DNA from: a virus
Virus record (IMG/VR): IMGVR_UViG_3300035126_000576
Span: 1 to 27,197 of that record
Length of the DNA stretch: 27,197 nucleotides
Strand: one strand, 5' to 3'
Position numbers and translations under genes: made by a program. The notes beneath the pieces were generated by a model, which was given only the letters and a program-made list of their open reading frames with translations, did not search any database and was not told the origin of the DNA. The first letter of the stretch is position 1. Each line of letters begins with the position of its first letter. Shown here piece after piece: positions 12,599-23,322 of this stretch.

Positions 12599-12618
12599 TA
12601 TTGTCTCAACGAGGAGTT

Positions 12619-13539
12619 ATGGATAGAACAAAACACATCGGCGGGAGTGACATCGGTAGCGTAGTCAACGCCCCGCCATACGGATGCGCTCGGAAGCTCT
12701 GGTATCAGAAGCGAGGCATCGAGCCCGACTACGTCATCGAGTTCAAAGGACACCTGATCCGTGGCACGAAGCTGGAACCGCTGATCGTCGAGGAGTACAC
12801 AGCGAAGACCGGCAACACGGTGCGGCGGCGCAAGACGATCCATGGCGAGAAAGACTACGAGATCGGCCAACCCGACCGGATTATCCTAAACGATCCACGC
12901 GGCCCTGGTATCCTCGAAACTAAGTCGGCCAACGAACGCAACTTTCGCAAGTTCCAGAAGGAAGGCCTGCCGCTCTCTTACCAACTTCAGATCCAGTGGT
13001 ATATGGGGCACGCTGGTTATCGCTGGGGCGCGTTCGCGATTCTGGAACCGAGTAACTGGCGGTTCGATCACTTCGAGGTCACTTTCGACGCGCAAGCGTT
13101 CGACCTTGTTCGCGAGATGGTGGCGCAGTTCTGGGCAATGGCCCAGGGCGAAGGCGAGCCCGACCGCTTGCCGGTGTCAGATAAGCGCTGCCAGTCCTGC
13201 GAGTGGCGGCACTCGTGCCAAGGCGTTGCGCTGCTTGAAGCGGTGGACGCTGACGACACTGACGCCGAGATCCCGGCGCTGGCCGACTTGGCGCAGGAGT
13301 ACTTGCAGCTCCGCGACGTTCGCGACGAAGCAGAGGAGGCGATGGAGTCGGTGAAAGAGGAGGCGACGCGGCTCCTGCAGGATCGTGCCGGCGCGACCGC
13401 TCCGGGGTTCCGTGTTCTGTACAAGCCGCAGACATCAATGCGCGTCGATTCCAAGGCGCTCAAGACCAAGTTCCCGGATGTGTACGAGGCGGTCGTCAAG
13501 CCGTCCGTGTCCCGTCCATTTCGCGTGTTCCCGGCGTAA
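12619..13539 (+). CDS. YqaJ/RecB-type recombination exonuclease with probable 4Fe-4S cluster
   Basis: 306 residues from ATG 12619 (GAGGAG 12611-12616); an upstream TTG at 12601 was not used. The N-terminal 'HIGGSDIGSVVNAPP' is typical of YqaJ/lambda-exonuclease proteins. The PD-(D/E)xK core is visible: E53 in 'GTKLEPLIVEEY', D86 in 'IGQPDRIIL', E100 and K102 in 'GILETKSAN', and the following 'SYQLQIQWYM' helix. C23 in 'YGCARKLWYQKRG' and the trio C191-x2-C194-x5-C200 match the four iron-sulphur Cys of Cas4/AddB-type nucleases. A coiled-coil C-terminal region (about 225-260) follows. It would degrade one strand of linear DNA for single-strand annealing with the RecT-like protein 18 bases downstream. 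Confidence 0.82.
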   Translation: MDRTKHIGGSDIGSVVNAPPYGCARKLWYQKRGIEPDYVIEFKGHLIRGTKLEPLIVEEYTAKTGNTVRRRKTIHGEKDYEIGQPDRIILNDPRGPGILETKSANERNFRKFQKEGLPLSYQLQIQWYMGHAGYRWGAFAILEPSNWRFDHFEVTFDAQAFDLVREMVAQFWAMAQGEGEPDRLPVSDKRCQSCEWRHSCQGVALLEAVDADDTDAEIPALADLAQEYLQLRDVRDEAEEAMESVKEEATRLLQDRAGATAPGFRVLYKPQTSMRVDSKALKTKFPDVYEAVVKPSVSRPFRVFPA

Positions 13540-13557
13540 CAGGGAAGGAGAATAACC

Positions 13558-14301
13558 ATGGCAACACAGACCGCTCCCCTCGTGGAGCAGATTCAACAGG
13601 CGCAGGCAGTGGCAGCGCAGCCGCAGCCTGAGCTGATGTCGTCCATCTTGGACCAGATCATTTCGGCATCCGATCGAGGCAGCGCCGAACACGGCGAAGC
13701 TCTTCAGATGAAGACCGACTTTGCCCAAGGCCTCATGTACGCCCGTGGCACGTCGGGCAGTGGCAAGAAACTCGACGCGGCCGATATTGCGATGCGTATC
13801 CGCTTTGGCCGTGAATTGGGCCTCAGCGCGTTTCAAGCGGCGCGGGGGATCTATTTCATCAACGGCATCCCGGCGATGATGGGCACGGTCCTGGAGCTGC
13901 TGATGCGGCGGCACGGCTACACCTGGACGTTCATCCAGCGCGACACGAAGGGCTGCATCCTTGAACTGAACAAGAACGGCGAGAAGGTCATGGATGGCGC
14001 GAAGCCTGCCCGCGCGTCGTTCACCGAAGAGGACGCCAAGCGCACCGGCTACGACAAGAAAGAGACGTACAAACAGGACCCCGAATCCATGTACTACTGG
14101 CGTGCCCTCGGCCGCCTTCAGAAGTTCTACGTCCCCGAGGCGACCGAGTACGTTTCGGTTCTGGCCCCCGGCGAACTCCCGATTGATGAGGTTGTCGCGG
14201 CTACGGAGTCCCGCATGGGCGAGGCGACTGCGGCGGCGGCGCTGCGCGACAAGTTGGCGGCTGTGACGCAGGCTCCGGTGGCTGAAAAGGTGACGGCGTG
14301 A
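13558..14301 (+). CDS. recT: RecT-like single-strand annealing protein
   Basis: 247 residues from ATG 13558, with 'GGAAGGAG' about 8 bases upstream. After a Gln/Ala-rich N-terminus comes the conserved annealase-like core: 'AMRIRFGRELGLSAFQAARG' (about 78-97), 'IYFINGIPAMMGTVLELLMRRHGY', 'FTEEDAKRTGYDKKETYKQDP' and 'MYYWRALGRLQKFYVPEATE'. This matches the RecT/RecT-like layout (GRE-G...INGKP...HGY...FT.eDA...RA). It would bind single strands exposed by the exonuclease and pair them with homologous DNA. The gene lies between the nuclease and a small SSB-like gene and forms a phage recombination operon with them. Confidence 0.78.
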   Translation: MATQTAPLVEQIQQAQAVAAQPQPELMSSILDQIISASDRGSAEHGEALQMKTDFAQGLMYARGTSGSGKKLDAADIAMRIRFGRELGLSAFQAARGIYFINGIPAMMGTVLELLMRRHGYTWTFIQRDTKGCILELNKNGEKVMDGAKPARASFTEEDAKRTGYDKKETYKQDPESMYYWRALGRLQKFYVPEATEYVSVLAPGELPIDEVVAATESRMGEATAAAALRDKLAAVTQAPVAEKVTA

Positions 14302-18304: not shown

Positions 18305-18680
18305 GCCCCGCACCCTCCGCACCACTTGCAGCGTCTGCGGCGCGCCCCGCAAGGAGAACAGCCGCCACGCCCTGTGCGAAACCCACCAGCGGGAAGCCGA
18401 GTCCCGCAACGCGCAACGGTGGCGCGAACGGCACCCGGAGAAGCTCCGGGCCATCCGGGATGCGGAGAACGCGGCGCGGAAGCGGGAACGGAAATCACGG
18501 GTTGTCAAGGTCAAGCCGGTGCGCGTCGCCGCCCCCAAGCCCAAGCCAGTCGTCGTGCGGCCGTATGTCCCCGATGTCCAGGTCGTCATCGGCCCCGAGG
18601 CGATCGAGCGGGTGCGGCCGGTGGATGTGCGGGGGCATAAGGTGACGCGGCTGGCTCCGGTGCATGGGTGGGGGCGATGA
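18294..18680 (+). CDS. Small zinc-finger, highly basic protein
   Basis: 128 residues from ATG 18294, with 'GGAGG' (18283-18287) upstream; alternative in-frame ATG 18279 lacks a good site. The N-terminal 'CSVCGAPRKENSRHALCETH' is a CxxC...CxxH zinc knuckle, followed by a long basic helix ('NAQRWRERHPEKLRAIRD') and a Lys/Val/Pro-rich tail ('KVKPVRVAAPKPKPVVV'). This points to nucleic-acid binding. It lies immediately upstream of the methyltransferase gene and overlaps it by 4 bp (ATGA). Confidence 0.52.
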   Translation: MPRKPRTLRTTCSVCGAPRKENSRHALCETHQREAESRNAQRWRERHPEKLRAIRDAENAARKRERKSRVVKVKPVRVAAPKPKPVVVRPYVPDVQVVIGPEAIERVRPVDVRGHKVTRLAPVHGWGR

Positions 18681-19963
18681 ACCTTTACAACGAAATCGAC
18701 CCCTACGCCGCGCAGTGGCTCCGCGCCCTCATCGATGCTGGCGAAATCCCGCCCGGCGACGTGAACGAAACCCCAATCGAGGAACTGAATGCAGACGACC
18801 TTATTCGATACACCCAATGCCATTTCTTCTGCGGAATCGCCGGCTGGCCCCTTGCCTTGCGCCTCGCCGAATGGCCCGACGATGAACCAGTCTGGACAGG
18901 CTCCTGCCCCTGCCAGCCCTTCTCGGTCGCCGGGAAAGGCCTCGGGGAAGACGACCCGCGCCACCTCTGGCCTGCGTTTCGGAGACTCATCGCCGAGTGC
19001 CGCCCTAACGTCGTCTTTGGTGAGCAGGTTGCGGGAGCGGCTGGATTGCGATGGCTCTCTGGAGTACAAGCTGACGTGGAGGAAGATTCGTACCGCCTGG
19101 GGTTTGCGGAGTTATGCGCTGCGGGCGTCGGCGAGAAAAGATGGACTGCTGTTGTTGGCGAAGACGGCAGGGTTGAATGGGAGGGCGACTATGTTGTTGG
19201 GGCGCCCCACATCCGGCAGCGGCTTTTCTGGGTGGCCGACCACCCGGAGCGAGGACGCGGAGAGCAGCGGGGCGAGGATCAGCCGAGGAGTGGCGGATAC
19301 GCTGACGGCGGTGGCGCGACTGGCGGGGTGGCTTTCTCCGACAAAGCAGGATGCGGCGCACGCAACACTCTCACCGGCGCAGGCGAATCGAAATGGCAGT
19401 TTGGTAAATCAGGCTTACCTCTCCGGCTGGACTACGCCCAACGCCCGCGATTGGAAGAGCGAGACGGGCAGCGAGAACAACAGCTACGACAAGTCGCCGA
19501 ACCTGTCGCGGCAGGTGCTGGCGGGGTGGGAAACCCCGACGAGTCGCGATCACTTCCCGGCTCACAGTCAGGAATACGTGGACGACAAGAAGGCGCAGGG
19601 GCACGGCATGGCGAACTTGAACGATCAGGCGGCGCTACTGGTGGGTTGGCCGACACCCATGGCGGGCTCTCCAGCAACGGACACCTACAATGCGGCGGGG
19701 AACAACGACTTCAGTCGCAAGGTGGCCGAGGTGACGCCTTCTGGTCCGACTTCGACATCCTCCCCTGCCTCGACGGCAAATCGCGGCGCACTCAATCCGG
19801 ACTTTTCCCGCTGGCTCATGGGGTATCCGGCCGCGTGGCTGTTCGCCGCCCCGGTAAAGAAGAACACTGGTACTCGCGGACGGGAACGCTCCGGGGCTTC
19901 GGGAACGCCATCGTGCCCCAAGTAGCGGCGGAGTTCGTGCGGGCTTATATGGAGGTTCGATGA
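18677..19963 (+). CDS. Phage C5-cytosine DNA methyltransferase
   Basis: 428 residues from ATG 18677. Motifs in order: motif I-like 'FFCGIAGWPLAL' (about 50-60), motif IV 'GSCPCQPFSVAG' with the likely catalytic C79, motif VI-like 'FGEQV' (114-118; Asn of the usual ENV replaced by Gln), motif VIII-like 'GAPHIRQRLFWVA' (175-187), and C-terminal motif X 'GFGNAIVPQVAAEF'. Between about residues 190 and 350 lies a long Gly/Arg/Gln-rich stretch of low complexity in the target-recognition position. That stretch coincides with the most protein-like part of the nested gene. The enzyme would methylate a cytosine in a short target, probably protecting phage DNA from restriction. It is coupled to the integrase by ATGA. 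Confidence 0.85.
   Translation: MNLYNEIDPYAAQWLRALIDAGEIPPGDVNETPIEELNADDLIRYTQCHFFCGIAGWPLALRLAEWPDDEPVWTGSCPCQPFSVAGKGLGEDDPRHLWPAFRRLIAECRPNVVFGEQVAGAAGLRWLSGVQADVEEDSYRLGFAELCAAGVGEKRWTAVVGEDGRVEWEGDYVVGAPHIRQRLFWVADHPERGRGEQRGEDQPRSGGYADGGGATGGVAFSDKAGCGARNTLTGAGESKWQFGKSGLPLRLDYAQRPRLEERDGQREQQLRQVAEPVAAGAGGVGNPDESRSLPGSQSGIRGRQEGAGARHGELERSGGATGGLADTHGGLSSNGHLQCGGEQRLQSQGGRGDAFWSDFDILPCLDGKSRRTQSGLFPLAHGVSGRVAVRRPGKEEHWYSRTGTLRGFGNAIVPQVAAEFVRAYMEVR
18789..19925 (+). CDS. Nested gene in another frame of the methyltransferase; GWxTP-repeat protein
   Basis: A 378-residue open frame lying wholly inside the methyltransferase gene in a different + frame. It starts at ATG 18789. The N-terminus is Ser/Pro/Ala-rich, followed by 'DCDGSLEYKLTWRKIRTAWG'. 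The central part has about six repeats of L-x-G-W-x-T/S-P-x-x-x-D ('GWPTTRSED', 'GWLSPTKQD', 'GWTTPNARD', 'GWETPTSRD', 'GWPTPMAG'), and near the end 'NPDFSRWLMGYPAAW'. By eye, over 19420-19660 the third codon positions are strongly G/C in this frame and mixed in the methyltransferase frame, the mark of real coding here. I know proteins of this form beside or within phage methyltransferase genes, but no function. It may be a true overlapping gene. Confidence 0.55.
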   Translation: MQTTLFDTPNAISSAESPAGPLPCASPNGPTMNQSGQAPAPASPSRSPGKASGKTTRATSGLRFGDSSPSAALTSSLVSRLRERLDCDGSLEYKLTWRKIRTAWGLRSYALRASARKDGLLLLAKTAGLNGRATMLLGRPTSGSGFSGWPTTRSEDAESSGARISRGVADTLTAVARLAGWLSPTKQDAAHATLSPAQANRNGSLVNQAYLSGWTTPNARDWKSETGSENNSYDKSPNLSRQVLAGWETPTSRDHFPAHSQEYVDDKKAQGHGMANLNDQAALLVGWPTPMAGSPATDTYNAAGNNDFSRKVAEVTPSGPTSTSSPASTANRGALNPDFSRWLMGYPAAWLFAAPVKKNTGTRGRERSGASGTPSCPK

Positions 19964-21150
19964 GCGCAGACCGATACAATCTCCGTGAGGCCATCTCTAT
20001 GGCCCCGGAGGATGACATGAAACGAAAGGGCCAACAAAAAGGCACCGTGCGCGCCCGTGGCGACAAGTGGTACATCGAGTACCGGGAGATGGTGGCCGAC
20101 GAATCCGGCACTCTGCGGTGGCGGTCCACCAGCAAGGCAGTAGGACCGACGACCGGCCCCGAGCGGCTGACAAAGCACAAGGCGTGGGAGAAGGGTTATC
20201 GCGAGTTCGTTGCGCCGGCCAACGGCCTGACGATCACGCCCGGAGGGACGGCGACGGTGGCGCAGTTCATCGACCTGAAGTTCCGGCCGGACTGCATGAT
20301 CGGGCTCGCCAAAGGAACCCTCGACACCTACGAAGGCACGCTGTCGAAGCACATCATCCCGGCACTCGGGCATGTGCAACTGCGCGACGTGTCCCGTTCG
20401 ATGGTCCAGACACTCATCAGCGCGAAGACTCGCTCCGGACTCTCTACCGAGTCCATTCGGCGCGTGCGGAACCTGATCCGGCTGATCTTCAAGCACGCCA
20501 AGCGGCTGAACTACTTCGCGGGCGAACTGCCTACCGAGGATCTGGTCATGCCACGGCAGAACGCCGCACAGCGGAATCCGCTGACGGCCGAGCAGGTTGA
20601 CCTCATCAAGTCGTTCTGTGACGGCCGCACGCGGTTGCTGATCGACTTCCTGCGCTCGACGGGCGTGCGGATCAGCGAAGCGTCCGGGCTGCGTTGGGAC
20701 GCCATCAACCTGACCGACTCGGATATGTGGCACGACGGTGAGCGGGTGCCGCCGTTCTGCGCGTTCATCTGTCGTCAGTACACGCGGGCCGAGATGAAGA
20801 CCGTCAAGACTTCGAAATCACGGCGCATGGTCCCGTTGACGACGTCGCTAGCGGTGCAGTTGCTGGAGTGGAGCGGCAAGCGGTACGAGACGGTCTTTGC
20901 GGGGCGCGGCGGGCGTCCGCTGTCGGGCAAGAACCATTTACGGCGGGTGCTGGCTCCGGCGGCGGTCAAGGCCGGAGTGCCCGGTATCGGGTGGCACCAC
21001 TTCCGCCACACGACGGCGACGGCAACGGATACGGTATTGACGGAAGCGCAGCGCATGAGCCTGCTCGGGCACACGCGGAAGTCAACAACGATGCACTACA
21101 CGAAGGCCGACTTGGAAGAGATCCGGGTTGGCTTGGAGCGGATTCAGTGA
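19960..21150 (+). CDS. int: Tyrosine recombinase (phage integrase)
   Basis: 396 residues from ATG 19960 (ATGA overlap). An N-terminal beta-rich arm-binding region ('KGTVRARGDKWYIEYREM') is followed by a SAM-like core-binding domain (about 97-190) and the catalytic domain. Catalytic residues are all present: R237 in 'STGVRISEASGLRW', K286 in 'TSKSRR', H346-x-x-R349 in 'GWHHFRH', H371 in 'LLGHTRKS' and Y380 in 'MHYTK'. It would integrate the phage into the tRNA-Arg(TCT) gene whose 3' half lies just downstream. Inferred arm sites lie on both sides of that core. Transcription from the methyltransferase region is likely, since no separate promoter is visible. Confidence 0.92.
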   Translation: MSADRYNLREAISMAPEDDMKRKGQQKGTVRARGDKWYIEYREMVADESGTLRWRSTSKAVGPTTGPERLTKHKAWEKGYREFVAPANGLTITPGGTATVAQFIDLKFRPDCMIGLAKGTLDTYEGTLSKHIIPALGHVQLRDVSRSMVQTLISAKTRSGLSTESIRRVRNLIRLIFKHAKRLNYFAGELPTEDLVMPRQNAAQRNPLTAEQVDLIKSFCDGRTRLLIDFLRSTGVRISEASGLRWDAINLTDSDMWHDGERVPPFCAFICRQYTRAEMKTVKTSKSRRMVPLTTSLAVQLLEWSGKRYETVFAGRGGRPLSGKNHLRRVLAPAAVKAGVPGIGWHHFRHTTATATDTVLTEAQRMSLLGHTRKSTTMHYTKADLEEIRVGLERIQ

Positions 21151-22264: not shown

Positions 22265-22603
22265 GTGTCTACTGTAACAGAAAATGACGTCGAGGCCGAA
22301 ATCCTACGGTTTCTAGTGCGCCATGGGTGGATCGTTCGGCGGCAGCATTCGGGCGTGTTTCGCACGAACGCGGGGCACTCCGTCCGCATCGGCGAGAAGG
22401 GCATGGCCGACTGGTCAGCGATGAAGCCCACCGGACGCGGCACGGTTCGATACCTCGAAGTCGAGGTAAAGGCACCAGGCAAGGCGGCGCGGCCGGAGCA
22501 ACGAGAATACATCGCCAAGCGCAAGCACCAGGGGATTTCGTGCTGCGTGGCGGATTCCGGGCTGGCGTTCGAGACGTGGTATTTCGCGGAGGGGTTTGAG
22601 TGA
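22265..22603 (+). CDS. VRR-NUC domain nuclease
   Basis: 112 residues from GTG 22265, with 'GGAGGGG' upstream. The whole protein is one VRR-NUC (PD-(D/E)xK) domain: E12 in the first helix, D49 in 'GMADWSAM', E67-x-K69 in 'YLEVEVKAPGK', and 'RPEQREYIAKRK' after it. The standalone form is common in phages and is found next to SF2 helicases; the eukaryotic relative FAN1 cuts branched DNA. It probably resolves branched intermediates of phage replication together with the helicase at 23319, from which it is separated by an endonuclease gene. Confidence 0.82.
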   Translation: MSTVTENDVEAEILRFLVRHGWIVRRQHSGVFRTNAGHSVRIGEKGMADWSAMKPTGRGTVRYLEVEVKAPGKAARPEQREYIAKRKHQGISCCVADSGLAFETWYFAEGFE

Positions 22604-23322
22604 TGAGCGCCCAATGGTTCATTTACGCGCTGACAGACCCTAAAACAGAAGCCGTCCGTTACATCGGCTATACCGCTAACCCAAAGAAGCGTTTGTACCA
22701 GCACATATACCACTGCAATGGAAAAGATAGCCACAAAAACAGCTGGATAAAGAAGCTGCTATCCGAAGGGAATTCGCCGAATCTGGTCATTCTTGAACGG
22801 GGCGATGGGCCATGGCAGGAGCGTGAGAAGTACTGGATACAGCATTATCGAAATCTTGGCGTGCGGCTTACCAATTCGACCAATGGTGGCGATGGTGCGT
22901 GCGGTTTGCTTGTCAGCGAAGAAACCCGCCGAAAGATCGGCAATCAGTCTCGCGAGAGTAAGCGATATGTAAATTGGATTAACGCCGCCATAAGTTCAAA
23001 CATAGGCAGGAAGCAGTCAAAAGAGGCAATCGAAAAGCGAGTAGCCAAGGTCATTGGCCGGAAGATGTCACAAGAAACTAAGGACAAGATCAGGGCGAAA
23101 GCGCTTGGCAGGGCAGTATCAGAAGAAACTAAGGCCAAGATGTCTGCTTCTCACGTAGGTAAAGTCAAGAGCGAGGAAACGAGAAAGAAACTATCTCGGT
23201 CCTTGATGGGGCGCCCAGTCAGCCAAGAGCTACGGCAGCACTTCTCCATCACTAGGAAGGGTATCCCGTGGTCGGATGAGCGCCGAAGGAAACACGAAGC
23301 AAAAAAGGCGGTGCAGGCATGA
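22603..23322 (+). CDS. GIY-YIG homing endonuclease with NUMOD3 repeats
   Basis: 239 residues from ATG 22603 (TGATG overlap; GTG 22600 is possible). The GIY-YIG nuclease domain covers about residues 5-95: 'WFIYALTDP', 'VRYIGYTANPKKRLYQH' with the catalytic Arg, and 'EREKYWIQHY' with the metal-binding Glu. The C-terminal half holds about four helix-turn NUMOD3-like repeats ('SEETRRKIG', 'SQETKDKIRAKALG', 'SEETKAKMSASHVG', 'SEETRKKLSRSLMG') that bind DNA. The gene is clearly AT-richer (about half GC) than its flanks and uses more AAG/AAA/ATA codons, a sign of recent arrival. It sits as a free-standing mobile gene between nuclease and helicase. Confidence 0.9.
   Translation: MSAQWFIYALTDPKTEAVRYIGYTANPKKRLYQHIYHCNGKDSHKNSWIKKLLSEGNSPNLVILERGDGPWQEREKYWIQHYRNLGVRLTNSTNGGDGACGLLVSEETRRKIGNQSRESKRYVNWINAAISSNIGRKQSKEAIEKRVAKVIGRKMSQETKDKIRAKALGRAVSEETKAKMSASHVGKVKSEETRKKLSRSLMGRPVSQELRQHFSITRKGIPWSDERRRKHEAKKAVQA

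Follow-up and report, generated by a model that had tools for sequence, protein, structure and literature searches.

A phage C5-cytosine methyltransferase gene that very probably carries its specificity and motif IX subunit in a second reading frame

The window analyzed here is the whole of a 27,197-nucleotide stretch of viral DNA (IMG/VR record IMGVR_UViG_3300035126_000576, positions 1 to 27,197), in which positions 18789-19925 of the + strand are covered by two open frames, that of a C5-cytosine methyltransferase (alpha) and, in the +1 register, that of a 378-aa nested ORF (beta). The features of the locus are the following:

18668-19963, + strand: alpha, C5-cytosine methyltransferase frame with motifs I-VIII and X (431 aa; the likelier start is ATG 18677)
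18779-18784, + strand: Shine-Dalgarno-like GAGGAA, 4 nt ahead of the nested ATG 18789, read from the sequence
18789-19925, + strand: beta, nested ORF with putative target-recognition repeats and motif IX (378 aa; from phrog_1008, profile match and selection test)
18789-18940, + strand: N-terminal tail of beta, free of nested-frame selection and dominated by alpha motifs I-IV (NN/NS 0.89-1.24)
18940-19239, + strand: dual-coded zone, alpha motifs VI-VIII and a nested helix-strand-strand-helix (LTWRKIR...YALRASAR), both frames constrained
19230-19742, + strand: five nested-frame GW-x-TP repeats, over which alpha is a neutral Gly/Arg/Gln spacer (nested NN/NS 0.39, alpha NN/SN 1.07)
19743-19922, + strand: dual-coded zone, alpha DGK/PLAHG segment and the nested C-terminus (alpha NS/SS 0.21, nested SN/SS 0.29)
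19806-19838, + strand: motif IX-like SRWLMGYPAAW of the nested frame, on the same bases as alpha FPLAHGVSGRV (19805-19837)
19901-19921, + strand: motif X (GNAIVPQ) of the alpha frame

The initial annotation of this DNA, made from the letters alone, had noted two long overlapping + frames, methyltransferase motifs at both ends of one of them, regular GW-x-TP repeats with G/C-rich third codon positions in the other, and FPLAHG and SRWLMGYP on shared bases, all of which we recovered. The alpha motifs lie at 18899-18925 (PCQ), 19199-19237 (GAPHIRQR) and 19901-19921 (GNAIVPQ), and the five nested repeats start at 19230, 19326, 19425, 19524 and 19644, with a spacing of 32-40 codons. Between 19240 and 19742, the GC content by codon position is 0.60/0.55/0.78 in the nested frame, which equals 0.78/0.60/0.55 in the alpha frame; the non-overlapped or alpha-dominated 5' part has 0.65/0.47/0.74, so that the alpha frame is reversed in the repeat zone.

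A phage integrase ORF (19960-21150) begins 4 nt before the end of alpha, so that the methyltransferase adjoins the integration genes of what is likely a temperate phage. Elsewhere in the window, a RecE-like exonuclease (phrog_434, 2.4e-49) is followed by a RecT-like annealing protein (phrog_4171, 1.7e-7) at 12601-14301, and a homing-endonuclease-like ORF (22600-23322; phrog_314, 1.2e-16) stands directly upstream of a helicase gene. Within the locus, about 23 codons are inserted in frame ahead of motif VIII (19125-19200; alpha VGEKRWTAVVGEDGRVEWEGDY) and are open in both frames; L036 has the insertion too, and the close relatives L035 and L037 lack it.

Alpha is recognized by Pfam PF00145 (5.9e-10, above the cut-off) and phrog_363 (1.8e-67), and matches M.HhaI at 1e-15 in a PDB sequence search. 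It carries the C5-methyltransferase motifs PCQ (IV), an ENV-like motif (VI), QxRxR (VIII) and X, and these motifs show little or no variation across 40 relatives, EQV standing in for ENV. The AF2 model is mostly confident for residues 1-195, the catalytic domain, and 413-431, the C-terminal motif X helix, while residues 199-412 mostly have a pLDDT below 50 and are mostly disordered; in a Foldseek search, the model matches M.HhaI (E 5e-7) as well as other C5-methyltransferases. The alpha chain showed no folded small domain that would hold TRD and motif IX; its middle is mostly disordered in the model and neutral under selection. Where motif IX belongs, alpha carries PLAHG (as a pattern, PLADGxPxRV), on the DNA that codes for motif IX in the other frame.

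The initial annotation left the nested protein unnamed; it appears to be the half of this enzyme, with TRD and motif IX, that alpha lacks. Beta was not recognized by Pfam, NCBIfam or a PDB sequence search, and none of 40 family members had a Pfam match at E <= 0.01. The profile phrog_1008, in turn, matches it at 1.2e-24 and also covers K1ind1 ORF28 (2.6e-54), Shelly gp56 (8e-74), the one-piece Ritam007 gp68 (1.1e-62) and the split Conboy gp79 (2.7e-102), spanning residues 211-351 of beta and 270-462 of Ritam007 gp68 from the same profile position on. An hhalign comparison with a set of actinophage methyltransferases aligned nested residues 148-353 to the stretch from the repeats up to and including motif IX (Prob 96, E 2.8e-9), the match running through EWLMGLPDGW of the actinophage family; repeats may inflate such profile scores, and the beta match is anchored at motif IX. 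By these alignments, beta is a homologue of the TRD and motif IX segment of one-piece and split C5-methyltransferases. Its residues W342, L343, M344, G345, Y346, P347 and W350 are invariant in 40 sequences, and WLMGxPxxW, which we take to be motif IX, is read in this way because it is placed before motif X and resembles the classical R-L-Q-G-F-P motif. The Pfam match of the motif IX-X stretch in Samy gp50 reaches only E 0.2. The AF2 model of beta is mostly unconfident (pLDDT 51.7), and a PDB fold search with it gave no match at E <= 0.001. Its sole substantially confident part is the helix-strand-strand-helix of residues 69-128, the segment that is dual-coded over motifs VI-VIII, and since non-overlapping actinophage betas begin directly at the repeats, this segment may be an overprinted docking piece.

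Selection in both frames was estimated from 285 distinct locus sequences, reduced to 78 independent pairs in which each sequence was used once; the pairs share no sequence, come mostly from two big sequence groups and are unevenly spread over phages. Every possible change was classed as synonymous (S) or nonsynonymous (N) in each frame, and ratios were calculated by zone with bootstrap. Non-overlapped alpha 5' sequence had a dN/dS of 0.19. In the repeats of the 78 pairs, the nested frame is constrained (NN/NS 0.39, bootstrap range 0.32-0.46; SN/SS 0.39) and alpha is neutral (NN/SN 1.07, bootstrap range 0.95-1.20; NS/SS 1.09). Both frames are constrained over motifs VI-VIII (alpha NN/SN 0.27 and NS/SS 0.25; the nested frame more weakly, NN/NS 0.66 and SN/SS 0.61) and in the motif IX zone, i.e., the last 150-180 nt or so of the nested gene (nested NN/NS 0.45 and SN/SS 0.29; alpha NN/SN 0.33 and NS/SS 0.21). 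In sliding windows, nested-frame constraint sets in about 240-300 nt into alpha (window positions of about 18910-18970) and lasts up to the nested stop codon; past that codon, NN/NS is 1.04-1.08. Compared with its closest relative, L035, the window shows alpha-only changes at 12 of 57 sites in the repeats and nested-only changes at 1 of 59.

The initial annotation had suggested that the nested protein is selected, and that part of the methyltransferase recognition region is a by-product or both frames are used. Selection on the nested protein is borne out for the repeats and fails for its first 50 or so codons (18789 to about 18940), where NN/NS is 0.89-1.24 in the windows from nt 120 to 240 of the methyltransferase start. 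As to the methyltransferase frame, it is indeed a by-product in the repeats, although it is kept open there, and both frames are in use at motif IX and over motifs VI-VIII. Substitutions that are synonymous in the methyltransferase frame are suppressed, at 0.11 per site in the repeats versus 0.41 in non-overlapped methyltransferase sequence.

The openness of the two frames was compared with synonymous shuffles. When the nested codons of the window were redrawn synonymously, 6.4 alpha-frame stops were expected in the repeats and none was observed (P(open) 0.000, 200 shuffles), and in the reverse shuffle over motifs VI-VIII, 3.2 nested-frame stops were expected (P(open) 0.02). Across 83 loci, for which an open alpha frame had been a condition of inclusion, redrawn nested codons produced a mean of 2.3 stops in alpha over the repeats, and 8.1 loci would have stayed open by chance; in the unfiltered set retrieved with the nested query, alpha is broken in only 3 of 113 (frameshifts in L028 and L078, one stop in L102). 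Over motifs VI-VIII, 2.2 of 79 loci would be expected to stay open in the nested frame, and all 79 loci found with the methyltransferase profile hold a nested homologue, so that the nested frame is kept where the methyltransferase frame is intact, with only isolated single stops. Such stops occur in L079 (2027-2890), in the nested frame just past a repeat, and in L102 (2353-3267), in alpha just before motif VI; they reflect either decay or sequence error. Stop-avoidance estimated from substitution counts was set aside, since the loci were defined as open. The middle of alpha is thus free in sequence yet kept open, as would be the case if translation of alpha has to reach motif X.

The initial annotation had called the nested gene conserved-looking, and its pairing with the methyltransferase turned out to be more general than supposed. 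Searches with the nested protein fetched 33 bacterial-genome loci, 32 of them with a methyltransferase frame, and 80 viral loci, all with one; the overlapping pair was present in 32/32 and 80/80 of these, always in the +1 register. It was also found in all 79 viral loci retrieved with the methyltransferase profile, a query blind to the nested frame, and in 5/5 viral loci from a further methyltransferase query. Among 119 methyltransferase loci recovered with an EWLMGFP DNA pattern, at least 113 have a profile-detected overlapping partner; L182, L210 and L222 fall below the profile threshold, yet overlap when inspected. For L164, a candidate one-piece methyltransferase with EWLMGFP, inspection suggests a fortuitous match, and the idea that EWLMGFP proteins are stand-alone genes was rejected, as nearly every pattern locus overlaps a methyltransferase frame. 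All eight named phages fetched have the overlap, and those with the pair include K1ind1, N15, epsilon15, Edwardsiella phage eiAU, Paenibacillus phage Shelly and Pseudomonas phage 5399. Most fetched records list one of the two ORFs; both are already present in a few, i.e., K1ind1 (ORF28, 'Mte8-like'), Xanthomonas phage PhiXhv-18 and Shelly (gp56, 'g55 internal gene'). In Cyanophage Cy-LDV1 (L124:1735-2614), a stretch of the overlap is annotated as 'methyltransferase' next to an antisense ORF, and the full catalytic frame is unannotated; in Paenibacillus phage HB10c2 (L327:1293-2345), the catalytic frame is labeled 'BsuMI methylase subunit YdiP' and the internal gene is, unlike in Shelly, unannotated.

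Both frames are open and selected, each in its own zones; the motifs are divided between them, and beta shares ancestry with the TRD and motif IX segment of other C5-methyltransferases. We consider it highly probable, from the sequences, that the locus encodes a two-subunit phage C5-cytosine methyltransferase whose specificity and motif IX subunit lies out of frame inside alpha. In the proposed scheme, frame 0 would yield alpha with motifs I-VIII, a long unstructured spacer and motif X, and the +1 frame, from its own internal start codon, would yield beta as a separately translated chain with the dual-coded N-terminal segment, the GW-x-TP target-recognition modules and motif IX. Docked onto alpha in an alpha-beta complex, beta would furnish the enzyme's DNA-recognition (small) domain, with each repeat acting as a recognition module and the modules together setting the methylated sites. 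The phage might thereby methylate its own DNA, presumably against host restriction.

An unlikely alternative is one fused chain with motifs I-VIII, TRD and motif IX, made beside full-length alpha by programmed frameshifting, in which ribosomes reading alpha would pass to the +1 frame close to motif VIII. One shift would be enough, and the one-piece relatives do hold the same elements in the same order in a single chain. However, nested-frame selection begins some 300 nt before motif VIII ends, which a shift after that motif leaves unexplained, and natural split pairs exist (Samy 49/50, RedFox 42/43 and PeaceMeal1 76/75). The starts also point away from it. The nested ATG 18789 is preceded by GAGGAA with a gap of 4 nt, and among 178 relatives, which are not independent of each other, an ATG or GTG with a Shine-Dalgarno match of at least five bases occurs near the nested 5' end at alpha nt 100-140 in 19% versus 3% expected from alpha-synonymous shuffles, and at nt 60-100 in 13% versus 5%. 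No nested start codon is universally conserved, its position varies, and raw Shine-Dalgarno counts at nested starts were uninformative, the signal coming from the comparison with the shuffles. This enrichment favors internal initiation over frameshifting.

Somewhat less probable still is that a separate protein with another job, e.g., a regulator, an anti-restriction factor or a hidden homing endonuclease, is concealed in the methyltransferase gene, as in the out-of-frame HNH genes reported inside phage methylase genes (PMC11855218). Those ShiLan elements are optional insertions with a disjunct distribution, whereas the overlap described here is near-universal in the methyltransferase family and runs across catalytic motifs; the 40 members lack any Pfam match at E <= 0.01, and the homology of beta is to the TRD-motif IX segment of methyltransferases themselves. 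A hidden homing endonuclease was rejected, as beta has no such domain and is not an optional insertion. It is extremely improbable that base composition and selection on the methyltransferase produced the nested ORF as a mere by-product, as G+C-rich DNA with few stops allows and as the N-terminal tail of the ORF behaves; this reading was rejected by the selection and shuffle tests, considering the purifying selection on the nested frame where alpha is neutral and an openness far beyond the synonymous-shuffle expectation.

The nested proteins hold 0-6 recognizable repeats, with a median module of 37 residues, and 66 module pairs (pairs counted, not events) are at least 80% identical between loci with catalytic parts less than 60% identical; L199 and L201, for instance, share a module at 97% identity with catalytic parts at 37%. 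Loci with near-identical shared modules are L199, L201, L144, L160, L162, L215, L233, L043 and L059. The pattern suggests, with differing evolutionary rates uncontrolled, that recognition modules may have been swapped between phages, and multispecific Bacillus phage enzymes exchange recognition modules as well.

The two-subunit reading bears on existing records. Since annotation pipelines tend to retain a single frame where two overlap, many phage records hold only half of the enzyme, name the other half hypothetical or attach the methyltransferase label to the nested half (e.g., Cyanophage Cy-LDV1), and cloning or specificity studies expressing the annotated half alone would miss the specificity subunit. 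As a same-strand overlap, the locus is unusually clean and widespread, since its dual-coded zones can be distinguished from its single-coded ones, and it offers swappable recognition modules for targeted methylation work. A broader reading, to which we give an even chance, is that these loci form a very large unrecognized class of phage methyltransferases, obligately two-subunit with an out-of-frame specificity subunit, in which both sides of the split are overprinted and the spacer leaves modules free to be traded. If this is true, the beta docking segment would be new over alpha motifs VI-VIII and the alpha DGK-PLADG segment new over beta motif IX, and the annotated 'recognition regions' of such enzymes would have been read in the wrong frame.

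The kind of enzyme is most likely that already known from M.EcoHK31I. As far as we found, its near-universal presence throughout a large family of phage methyltransferases, the location of the recognition repeats on the nested subunit, the sharing of modules, the neutral alpha spacer and the two dual-coded ends are undescribed; literature searches of partial coverage returned no paper on this overlap.

Among the known systems, the ShiLan domain, an out-of-frame HNH endonuclease gene in a phage methylase gene that behaves as an optional mobile insertion (PMC11855218), shares with the locus the placement of one gene out of frame inside another. An HNH domain and optional insertion were not found here, with no Pfam family in 40 members and the overlap in nearly all relatives. 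M.AquI is a C5-methyltransferase split into catalytic and recognition polypeptides (PMC3404938); it differs in having motif X on the small subunit and in its separate, not nested, genes.

The closest homologues of the parts are the actinophage C5-methyltransferases, among them the one-piece Jabberwocky gp4 (Gordonia) and Ritam007 gp68 (Mycobacterium), which have the same order of parts, i.e., motifs I-VIII, LPTP repeats, motif IX (EWMMGWPAGW) and motif X (GNGV) in one frame, and to which beta is homologous. They differ in that repeats, IX and X share a frame, also in the split pairs named above, where all three are on the second gene, the subunits being fused, side by side or slightly overlapping; their non-overlapping betas are without the dual-coded N-terminal segment of nested betas. 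An equal motif IX-X spacing in both layouts was rejected, as it is 11 codons in 241 overlapped loci versus 22-23 in the in-frame actinophage enzymes. In Mycobacterium phage LittleB, the catalytic and recognition genes 79/78 overlap by 173 nt in the +1 register (L335:1054-1226), possibly an intermediate between the side-by-side and nested layouts. In the catalytic-domain tree, the overlapped RWLMGYP set forms a single clade with support 1.0, most in-frame enzymes of actinophages group together (0.95), and Samy and Vash stand apart.

The BsuMI enzyme YdiO/YdiP of B. subtilis is likewise a split C5-methyltransferase with separate genes, and in the multispecific C5-methyltransferases of B. subtilis phages (SPR, phi3T), motif VIII is followed, ahead of motif IX, by several recognition modules, each some 40 residues long; the latter enzymes resemble the window locus in module layout and differ in being a single chain in one frame. 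M.EcoHK31I, a two-polypeptide C5-methyltransferase (YGGCCR), has motifs I-VIII and X on the large subunit and motif IX on the small one (PMC3404938). The window locus has the same division, with I-VIII and X on alpha and IX on beta; it is likened by motif layout and, unlike M.EcoHK31I, is phage-borne, with no restriction gene noticed adjoining it. Lee, Kam and Shaw in 1995 reportedly found the small polypeptide to come from an alternative frame within the gene of the large one, and beta, too, lies in an alternative frame within the alpha gene. The TRD of M.EcoHK31I has been assigned in the literature to the large subunit, whereas the TRD-like repeats of the window locus are in the nested subunit, over a neutral alpha middle.
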